Virus record (IMG/VR): IMGVR_UViG_3300035162_003978
Span: 1-41,796 of that record
From: a virus
DNA: 41,796 nucleotides
Strand: one strand, 5' to 3'
The notes below the pieces were generated by a model. It was not told the origin of the DNA and did not search any database. It worked only from the letters and a program-made list of their open reading frames with translations. Position 1 is the stretch's first letter, and each line of letters opens with the position of its first letter. This document shows positions 20,340 through 35,425 of this stretch, piece after piece. The translations under genes and the position numbers were made by a program.

Positions 20340-20396
20340 TGATACACTAAAAAAAGATCAATAGTGTACTAGGAAAAAACCCCATCCAGTGTACTA
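20340..20396. promoter_or_regulatory. Cluster of TAGTGTACTA-type motifs
   Basis: Three related 10-mers: TGATACACTA (20340-20349, inverted), TAGTGTACTA (20362-20371) and CAGTGTACTA (20387-20396). The first two form a dyad with TACACTA and TAGTGTA as arms. The same motif recurs at 21446 and 25277-25320. The motif is nearly palindromic, as for a dimeric regulator's operator. Confidence 0.45.
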
Positions 20397-20398
20397 AG

Positions 20399-20426
20399 CA
20401 AAAAAAAACCCCTATTTTTTAGGGGC
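20399..20426 (-). terminator. Rho-independent terminator
   Basis: CCCCTA (20409-20414), loop, TAGGGG (20420-20425), T-run of nine on the minus strand. The stop codon of gene 20412-20555 lies inside the stem, which is why that peptide ends APKK. Third member of the duplicated terminator set. Confidence 0.8.
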
Positions 20427-21231: not shown

Positions 21232-21261
21232 CTGTATTATATTTTTAGTTATTAATTACTA

Positions 21262-21295
21262 CAATATAAACACTATTTTTTTTAATATCCTAATT
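21262..21295 (-). promoter_or_regulatory. Early-type promoter
   Basis: Minus strand AATTAGG (21295-21289), 20 bases, TATATTG (21268-21262), 30-base leader with AATTAATAACTAAAAA before ATG 21231. Confidence 0.75.
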
Positions 21296-21356: not shown

Positions 21357-21412
21357 AAAAAAAAAAGGGGGATCTTGACAACAATTAATAACCAAAAACC
21401 CAACCCCCCCTT
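21357..21412 (-). terminator. Large-loop terminator behind the structured RNA
   Basis: On the minus strand a G-run (complement of C at about 21403-21410) can pair with CCCCC (21371-21367), followed by ten T residues (21366-21357). The loop is over 30 bases. It would end the transcript that carries gene 21588-21923 and the RNA element. Confidence 0.5.
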
Positions 21413-21445
21413 ATATCATGTAGTGTAACATGAAAAAAACACCTC

Positions 21446-21455
21446 TAGTGTACTA
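21446..21455. promoter_or_regulatory. TAGTGTACTA motif
   Basis: Perfect TAGTGTACTA six bases from the edge of the structured RNA. A related TAGTGTAACA lies at 21421-21430, inside the interrupted palindrome CATG..CATG (21417-21432). Confidence 0.45.
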
Positions 21456-21460
21456 AGAAA

Positions 21461-21581
21461 TAACAATAGGTTGAGTAGGGGTTTCTTGCCTTATCACGAT
21501 CACTCCATAAGGGCTACTCATTCGACACCAAATCCAGATGGTTATCACTAACCTTTGGGCTTATTGTTACACCTATTGTTA
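21461..21581 (-). ncRNA. Candidate structured RNA, three-way junction
   Basis: Visible complementarities form a closed structure. P1: 21461-21471 with 21571-21581, 11 perfect pairs. One arm: CCAAA (21528-21532) with TTTGG (21554-21558), enclosing GGTTA (21540-21544) with TAACC (21549-21553). Its loop reads GUGA on the minus strand, a GNRA tetraloop. The other arm: TGAGTAG (21472-21478) with CTACTCA (21514-21520), enclosing CCTTAT (21489-21494) with ATAAGG (21507-21512). The GNRA loop, the upstream gene seven bases away and the downstream terminator favour the minus strand. A second TATTGTTA (21562-21569) offers an alternative P1 register. No known family was recognised. Confidence 0.6.
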
Positions 21582-21587
21582 ATTTAT

Positions 21588-21923
21588 TTAATATGCTGAT
21601 ACACTCATTTTCTGCTGATCTTCAAAACTTATTGCCCATTCATCTTCAGGTTGAGTTTTTTCATGCATATATCTTCTTAATTGCTCTGCTATTTCAGATA
21701 AACCATAACCCCCAACAATACAAATGTTATCCCAATTATCAATAGTACAATCATTCTGTATTGATCCCAACATCCCACCTCCTAGATAGTTTTGATATGC
21801 ACTCATTAACTCTCCATCCCAAACATCATCAAAAACTCCTAGATCAATTTCAACTCCACCCCCTCTAGTGCTAATTTTCTCTCTAATAACTGCACTTTCA
21901 ACTTTTTCCTTTAAATTTCCCAT
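21588..21923 (-). CDS. Hypothetical acidic protein, 111 aa
   Basis: ATG at 21923 (MGNLKEKVESAVIREKISTR). An in-frame GTG at 21965 lies inside the promoter and is rejected. The protein is acidic, with a Gly-rich centre (NYLGGGMLGSIQND) and VGGYGLSEIAEQLRRYMHEK. No family was recognised. Its transcript probably continues through the structured RNA at 21461-21581. Confidence 0.65.
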   Translation of the reverse strand: MGNLKEKVESAVIREKISTRGGGVEIDLGVFDDVWDGELMSAYQNYLGGGMLGSIQNDCTIDNWDNICIVGGYGLSEIAEQLRRYMHEKTQPEDEWAISFEDQQKMSVSAY

Positions 21924-21953
21924 TTTATTTTTTCTTTTAGTTAAACAACAATA

Positions 21954-21987
21954 CAATATAACCACTAATTTTTTTCTTATCCTAATT
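21954..21987 (-). promoter_or_regulatory. Early-type promoter
   Basis: Minus strand AATTAGG (21987-21981), 20 bases, TATATTG (21960-21954), 30-base leader to ATG 21923. The -33 box lies in the last codons of the upstream gene. Confidence 0.75.
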
Positions 21988-25175: not shown

Positions 25176-25207
25176 AATTAATTTAATTGGATCATTTCAA
25201 ATATAGA

Positions 25208-25261
25208 ACGCACATATACGCACATACGCACACGCATGGGTAACGTGTACGCATATACGCA
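25208..25261. repeat. ACGCA repeat cluster
   Basis: Six ACGCA words begin at 25208, 25218, 25226, 25232, 25249 and 25257 in a short GC-richer island, several as TACGCACA. The region lies just upstream of the accessory-block promoter. It could be an origin-like or regulator-binding cluster. Confidence 0.55.
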
Positions 25262-25276
25262 CTAAACAGACCTCCG

Positions 25277-25320
25277 TAGTCTACTAGCCCTGAATAAAAC
25301 TAGACTCCTACAGTGTACTG
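25277..25320. promoter_or_regulatory. TAGTNTACTA-type motifs behind the phosphoesterase gene
   Basis: TAGTCTACTA (25277-25286) and CAGTGTACTG (25311-25320) flank an AGTCTA/TAGACT dyad. They lie just downstream of the phosphoesterase stop codon and belong to the motif family also seen at 20340-20396 and 21446. Confidence 0.4.
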
Positions 25321-25333
25321 TACTAAGAAATTT

Positions 25334-34714: not shown

Positions 34715-34730
34715 AATGTATTTATTTGTG

Positions 34731-34738
34731 CAAATATA
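34731..34738 (-). promoter_or_regulatory. -7 promoter element behind a terminator
   Basis: Minus strand TATATTTG matches TAnnTTTG, 16 bases before ATG 34714, directly after the terminator at 34751-34778. No clear -33 box. It could restart transcription for portal and fibre genes. Confidence 0.4.
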
Positions 34739-34750
34739 TAAAAAATTATA

Positions 34751-34778
34751 AGAAAAGGGGGATTTCCCCCCTTTTTCT
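34751..34778 (-). terminator. Hairpin terminator between structural genes
   Basis: AGAAAAGGGGG and CCCCCCTTTTTCT form a long stem with a four-base loop. On the minus strand a TTTTCTT tract follows. It lies 18 bp downstream of the stop of the 209-aa structural gene. Confidence 0.65.
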
Positions 34779-34795
34779 CATAAAAAAGTTAATTA

Positions 34796-35425
34796 CTATG
34801 CAGAAGTCCAAGCAAGAACAGAACCTGTTGCTGCTTGATAGAAGTCAATTAAATTAGCAGCAGGAGCAGCTACGTTAGTATTGTTTATCAAAACTAAAGC
34901 TTCTCTTGGATATTCAGCTTGAATACCAGCTAATTTAACTAAAGTACCATTTGCATCTTGTAACCCCATACCTGTAGTTTGCTCACCTGAAGCAAACTCT
35001 AAATATGCTTTGTCCTCAAATACTTTATCGTAACCTATAATAAAGAAATAAGTCTCTGGATCGTCAGTATCACAATCATCAGCATAAGTTTCACATAAAG
35101 CGTGAATACCACAAGACTCAGTTAATTCTCTAAGTCTAGCATTGATTTCTTCAGTAATTTTAGGAATATAAAATTCTAGTTCAATATTAACAAGAGTTGA
35201 ACCATTCTCTCTAGTTGCATTTGCATTGAAACCAGCAGTTCCTCTGTCAAATTCAAATTCATACCAGTTTACAGAAGGGAAAGCTACGTATTCACCAGAA
35301 GTATGGATAGTAACTGCTCCTATCCCACCTGTGATTAAACCTTTTTCCATTAACCAGATTCTTTTTAGACCACCTCTTCGGTTTCTATCGCAACATATAA
35401 TTGCGTGTCCTTGTGTTAAAGCCAT
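34796..35425 (-). CDS. Structural protein, candidate major tail or head protein, 209 aa
   Basis: ATG at 35425. A beta-rich protein with KRIWLMEKGLITGGIGAVTI, VNWYEFEFDRGTAGFNANAT and later ALCETYADDCDTDDPETYFF. It is set apart by hairpin terminators on both sides and follows the major capsid gene. This isolated, terminator-flanked unit is typical of highly expressed structural genes. Major tail protein is a plausible identity, but I cannot confirm it. Confidence 0.55.
   Translation of the reverse strand: MALTQGHAIICCDRNRRGGLKRIWLMEKGLITGGIGAVTIHTSGEYVAFPSVNWYEFEFDRGTAGFNANATRENGSTLVNIELEFYIPKITEEINARLRELTESCGIHALCETYADDCDTDDPETYFFIIGYDKVFEDKAYLEFASGEQTTGMGLQDANGTLVKLAGIQAEYPREALVLINNTNVAAPAANLIDFYQAATGSVLAWTSA

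Follow-up and report, generated by a model that had tools for sequence, protein, structure and literature searches.

Directly behind a small gene of a metagenomic phage lies a 121-nt stretch that codes for nothing, and the questions it raises are whether it is a conserved RNA and what such an RNA might do at this position. The window, that is, the whole stretch of DNA that was analyzed, is a 41.8-kb virus record with a siphovirus-like gene set (tape measure, large terminase, portal, ClpP-type head protease, holin, exonuclease and replication initiator), and its relatives are viral contigs from metagenomes. The A+T-rich sequence, the style of the promoters and the kin of the phage suggest that the hosts are probably marine Bacteroidota. 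The original prediction, which was made from the letters of the window, had given the sequence and coordinates of the 121-nt element correctly, and its claim that the element is noncoding agrees with our finding no open reading frame of note at 21461-21581. The features of the locus are as follows.

21461-21581, minus strand: predicted structured RNA element, 121 nt, based on its fold and its homolog (L268:15-139)
21588-21965, minus strand: upstream gene whose transcript would carry the element, no Pfam or PHROG match
21952-21960, minus strand: promoter-like TATATTGTA ahead of that gene, pattern only
21357-21412, minus strand: terminator-like stem, G-run and CCCCC with ten T, long loop; a similar stem in L006
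20770-21231, minus strand: next gene, 153 aa, preceded by a TATATTGTA of its own at 21260-21268

The stop codon of the upstream gene is six bases ahead of the element. Its product is probably 111 aa long, with the start ATG at 21923, and belongs to an uncharacterized family (GGGxE ... QNYLGGGxLG..NDCT ... AY) for which searches of Pfam and PHROG gave no match. About 130 homologs of the gene occur in many phages, and the GGG-x-E and QNYLGGG-x-LG...NDCT motifs are invariant among them. The TATATTGTA motif stands about 29 nt before the ATG of both this gene and the next one and, as a pattern only, 24-29 nt ahead of the start codons of several other genes in the window. A terminator-like hairpin with ten T had been predicted downstream; the stem and the ten T are present, but the loop is longer than 30 nt. 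On the simplest reading, promoter, 111-aa gene, element and terminator would form a single short minus-strand mRNA, transcription being judged from the position of these features.

Other noncoding parts of the window also had recognizable features. A repeated 3' UTR module around CTTAGTACACT follows stop codons at 20340-20400, 21420-21460 and 25310-25330, in some copies with GAGGGGTTTTTTT behind it, and is conserved in L006, the closest relative of the phage. Alternating ACGCACATA repeats in the noncoding region 25190-25300, which folds well (z about -5), are conserved in L006 as well. The best local fold of the window, at 34721-34841 (z about -7 on both strands), is a GGGGGATTTCCCCCC hairpin between two structural genes that is probably a bidirectional terminator.

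The evidence for the element from the single sequence was modest to weak. Its minimum free energy was -32.7 kcal/mol on the minus strand and -33.7 kcal/mol on the plus strand, and 0.9% (minus) and 0.3% (plus) of dinucleotide shuffles (n = 1000) folded equally well. Without the closing stem the interior resembled its shuffles (p 0.19 minus, 0.08 plus), and the GUGA hairpin was present in only about half of the predicted ensemble. The closing stem alone is at chance level for a window of this size, as one perfect 11-bp inverted repeat with at least three G/C was seen and 1.5 were expected from shuffled windows, and a sliding scan showed that many other segments of the window fold better than the element. 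These statistics favored a chance fold until a homolog was found, upon which that explanation was rejected.

The homolog was obtained by scanning viral contigs with the degenerate pattern TGAGTAGCCCTTATN{6,26}ATAAGG, which returned a single contig, L268 (IMGVR_UViG_3300021960_001586). The region L268:15-139 is 82% identical to the element over 128 nt (E 4e-28), and a model built from nothing but the window sequence scored it at 77 bits. The scan pattern was derived from the element, so that the find is not independent of the element sequence; the pattern fixes 20 bases, and the other 100 bases of the L268 copy match too. Beyond this region the two phages have almost no DNA similarity. A few of their proteins match (at 38-62%), and the best match of the L268 terminase belongs to a different clade (L039, 89%). 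The genes beside the L268 copy are unrelated to those in the window. Because the same RNA sits 36 nt upstream of an ATG in L268, the element is not tied to 3' UTRs, and the earlier suggestion of a structured 3' UTR describes its location in the window phage correctly and does not carry over to L268. The element looks like an undescribed RNA family with two members so far.

Alignment of the two sequences gave a shared fold consisting of P1 (11 bp), P2 (5 bp, with a GUGA loop), P3 (7 bp) and P3b (6 bp), in which P3 abuts P1 without a linker and P3b lies beyond a one-sided 10-nt bulge. Its parts are given here in 5' to 3' order of the minus strand.

21571-21581, minus strand: P1 5' strand, UAACAAUAGGU, pairs with 21461-21471; in L268 one double change (C-G to U-A) and one U-G
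21556-21570, minus strand: junction J1/2, GUAACAAUAAGCCCA, unpaired, 15 nt, identical in the window and L268
21540-21553, minus strand: P2 hairpin, GGUUA-GUGA-UAACC, GNRA-type loop; in L268 two double changes (AGCUA-GUGA-UAGCU), loop identical
21521-21530, minus strand: 3' half of J2/3, UGGUGUCGAA, one base different in L268 (UGGUGwCGAA)
21514-21520, minus strand: P3 5' strand, UGAGUAG, from the window/L268 alignment
21489-21512, minus strand: P3b hairpin, CCUUAU, 12-nt loop, AUAAGG; stem identical in both, loop length varies
21479-21488, minus strand: 3' bulge, CAAGAAACCC, unpaired, 10 nt, identical in both
21472-21478, minus strand: P3 3' strand, CUACUCA, abuts P1; in L268 two changes, both to G-U on the minus strand
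21461-21471, minus strand: P1 3' strand, ACCUAUUGUUA, pairs with 21571-21581

All 29 pairs of the shared fold are standard in the window and in L268. Nine substitutions fall at paired sites, such that three pairs are double-changed (C-G to U-A in P1, G-C to A-U and U-A to C-G in P2) and three are single-changed to G-U. Read on the minus strand, the three single changes yield G-U pairs, whereas on the plus strand they would yield A-C, which indicates that the selected molecule is the minus-strand RNA. When the nine substitutions were placed at random over the paired sites, all pairs were kept in 1% of trials, and sliding the partners by one to three columns lowered the paired cells from 100% to 24-55%. 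A shuffle control of the alignment, which has little power with two sequences, reached the observed values in 61 of 500 cases, and the gap beside P2 was placed by a helix-aware aligner, so P2 is somewhat favored by the alignment. Of the complementarities open to both sequences, P1, P3 and P3b are the longest, and P2 is the strongest among those of five pairs; a six-pair alternative with one G-C pair lies within the P3b hairpin. Both sequences contain two AUAAG copies with which CCUUAU could pair, an ambiguity that was given no weight.

The comparison also settled which parts of the fold first proposed are shared. The perfect 11-bp closing stem was confirmed on the minus strand and is kept in L268, as is the GUGA-capped minus-strand arm, with its two double changes and identical loop. 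Compensatory changes in relatives had been named as the check on the proposal, and the sole homolog supplied three double changes and three G-U changes specific to the minus strand, which supports the claim of a new three-way-junction phage RNA on that strand. Two arms of two helices each had been drawn, of which the UGAGUAG/CUACUCA arm with its inner CCUUAU/AUAAGG helix stood, whereas the outer helices drawn for the GUGA arm, which join minus positions 15-25 to 46-57, are disrupted in L268 and were discarded. The idea that the closing stem might form in two registers and act as a switch was not borne out, as the second register has an ensemble probability of 0 at a cost of 7.6 kcal/mol, and L268 has not retained it.

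The first half of J2/3 is unrecognizable between the two sequences (1 of 11 columns matches). The contrast between these scrambled bases and the conserved unpaired bases, all within 125 nt, suggests that specific unpaired core bases are under selection, and not stability alone.

The distribution of the element is sporadic. In L006, the flanks are about 77-85% identical to those in the window and the element is absent, with a 133-nt gap between the aligned blocks. It is absent as well downstream of the homologous gene in L136, L138, L145 and L140, and related phages have unrelated hairpins at this position after that gene. Based on its absence from these five relatives, a gain in the lineage of the window phage is more economical than repeated loss. 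Across about 260 related viral loci, BLAST and covariance searches (R1 and R3 among the models) gave no further copy. No copy was found in the phage and plasmid records searched, in several hundred Bacteroidota genomes including Bacteroidia (where matches of 19-29 nt were attributable to chance) or a second time within the window genome. A six-frame similarity search of the element found nothing, and its reading as a protein remnant was rejected. Given its absence from the closest relative and from about 260 further loci, the element is accessory cargo, and it sits in a variable small-gene region of both the window phage and L268. Compensatory changes in a homolog, as expected of a conserved structured RNA, were found for two sequences only. 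We consider it very probable that the element is a real three-way-junction RNA, previously undescribed, which phages with probable marine Bacteroidota hosts carry as accessory cargo.

The original prediction had recognized no known ribozyme or riboswitch core, and the Rfam search agrees. Rfam 15 (4227 families) gave no covariance model match to the window at the gathering score, none to 21380-21640 at E up to 5 and no credible match to L268, and ARAGORN found no tRNA or tmRNA gene in the window. By inspection, the hammerhead core CUGANGA ... GAAA ... UH is absent from the element. Our own hammerhead model R2 (26 sequences, filters off) and Rfam found no hammerhead in it, the rest of the window is likewise free of hammerheads, and the pistol model (RF02679) had no match in the window or L268. 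An integron attC site was rejected because the core sites do not fit.

Known self-cleaving ribozymes were observed at gene junctions of other phages. Arrays of type I hammerheads lie between successive small phage genes in L255 (204-4475) and also in L236, L224, L215, L202, L226, L229 and L257, where the hammerheads often overlap a stop codon and end about 13-30 nt before the next ATG. Nine hammerheads occupy 6.3 kb of L255, and L236 has six hammerheads and three pistols. Most array hammerheads score below the Rfam cut-off; model R2 was built from them. Their covariation is strong (double changes in 15 of 17 pairs), and matches in shuffled sequence (2.3 Mb) numbered 0, 0 and 1. Tandem hammerheads in up to a triple arrangement have been described (PMC3088659), as have pistols associated with phage genes (PMC4604425), and we found no arrays beyond the triple arrangement in the open-access literature searched. 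With up to nine hammerheads in an array, it becomes possible to test directly why phages would cut up their own polycistronic transcripts. Shortly after the stop of the homolog of gene 21588-21965, GTCAGGTAGATGACATTTTAGTGTCAGGAACACAACTACTTTAGC is conserved in about nine phages (L195-L200, L204, L206, L208) and is possibly another structured RNA. A GTCTGGACGGGTGGCGTTCTTGGTTGGAGCCAGT-like stretch is conserved after the same stop in L245-L253 and L259, and L245 and L248 also have pistol ribozymes nearby.

The explanation that we favor, tentatively and from position and shape, is that the element is an intercistronic self-cleaving RNA. Lying within a putative short minus-strand mRNA of promoter, 111-aa gene, RNA and terminator, it would have an 11-bp closing helix, a second long arm stacked on it without a linker, a small GUGA-capped hairpin and a conserved unpaired core. 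It would act through its own fold at the gene junction, most likely by cleaving itself and so cutting the transcript there, in parallel with the hammerhead and pistol ribozymes that presumably cut in phages with the same upstream gene. The element is found at gene junctions with differing neighbors, after a stop codon in the window and before an ATG in L268. This placement speaks against a riboswitch serving a single gene and in favor of an element whose place is the junction itself. Homologs of gene 21588-21965 are directly followed by hammerheads in L224 and L236. Because the hammerhead and pistol models match nothing in the element, it is only position and shape that point to a ribozyme. 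Cutting would not be needed to separate the genes of the window, since a terminator and a new promoter follow the element, and the nearest phages are without hammerheads except for one in L153. The more specific proposal of a new class of self-cleaving ribozyme, carried as accessory cargo among marine Bacteroidota phages and cutting transcripts between genes, is unlikely.

Several other explanations draw on the same evidence. The element could be a stand-alone accessory RNA acting in trans, either released or kept at a stable mRNA 3' end, as a decoy or regulator of a host or defense component. Its variable small-gene surroundings in both phages, its absence from nearly all relatives, its compact closed fold with conserved unpaired surfaces and the want of a conserved gene partner are all in line with this. 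However, no promoter of its own was seen, no target or defense system was identified and no known decoy RNA proved similar, and we regard this explanation as somewhat unlikely, although it ranks closely behind the favored one. Improbable, in our view, is a cis-regulatory element or riboswitch acting on a neighboring gene or the downstream terminator. A three-way junction with conserved junction bases does resemble aptamer architecture, and the L268 copy has an ATG behind it, that in the window a terminator-like stem, but the neighboring genes differ between the two phages, the next gene in the window has its own promoter-like motif beyond the terminator, and the alternative register has a probability of 0 and is not conserved.

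A generic stabilizer, in which a folded spacer with no specific core protects the 3' end of a short mRNA, is very improbable. Although the element lies between stop codon and terminator, where related phages have unrelated hairpins, such a spacer would not preserve 15 and 10 unpaired bases unaltered while adjacent bases change, and the L268 copy is upstream of a gene. Barely plausible is a small MITE-like mobile DNA repeat, with P1 as its terminal inverted repeat and the fold incidental. The additional stretch and the inverted repeat have nearly the same ends, the stretch is flanked on both sides by a 3-bp ATT, and it is absent from the closest relative. By contrast, the element is single-copy in its genome, scans of viral and genome contigs for the terminal repeats gave only unrelated sequences, and the three single changes favor pairing only in an RNA of one strand. 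A MITE-like element would be defined by several copies that share their terminal inverted repeats and target duplications; no other copies were found in these scans, and this candidate was rejected.

If the element is set beside known systems, likenesses and differences are found for each. We found no closer precedent for the element in the open-access literature searched, which is no proof of absence; it is new in matching no Rfam family and is known from two sequences. Like the type I hammerhead (RF00163), it has a closing helix and two more helices around conserved unpaired bases, and hammerheads too occur between genes, in L224 and L236 directly behind the stop codon of a gene from the same family as gene 21588-21965. 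Unlike a hammerhead, it has no CUGANGA/GAAA core, is about twice as long and is not matched by R2. The pistol (RF02679) also occurs between genes, in several copies, in phages that share the upstream gene, but its model matches neither the window nor L268. Similar to RAGATH motifs, which are structured RNAs found close to genes associated with ribozymes, the element adjoins a gene that elsewhere neighbors ribozymes, although the RAGATH families in Rfam do not match it. The packaging RNA of phi29 is a three-way junction of about 120 nt, and the element resembles it in size, closing helix and junction; it differs in having no Rfam match, in being absent from its nearest relatives and in sitting, as predicted, in an mRNA. 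The small size of the element would allow self-cleavage to be tested quickly in vitro. Its profile, a closed compact fold with about 25 invariant unpaired core bases, shared by otherwise very different phages and absent from Rfam, is how new ribozymes and trans-acting phage RNAs looked before their biochemistry was known.
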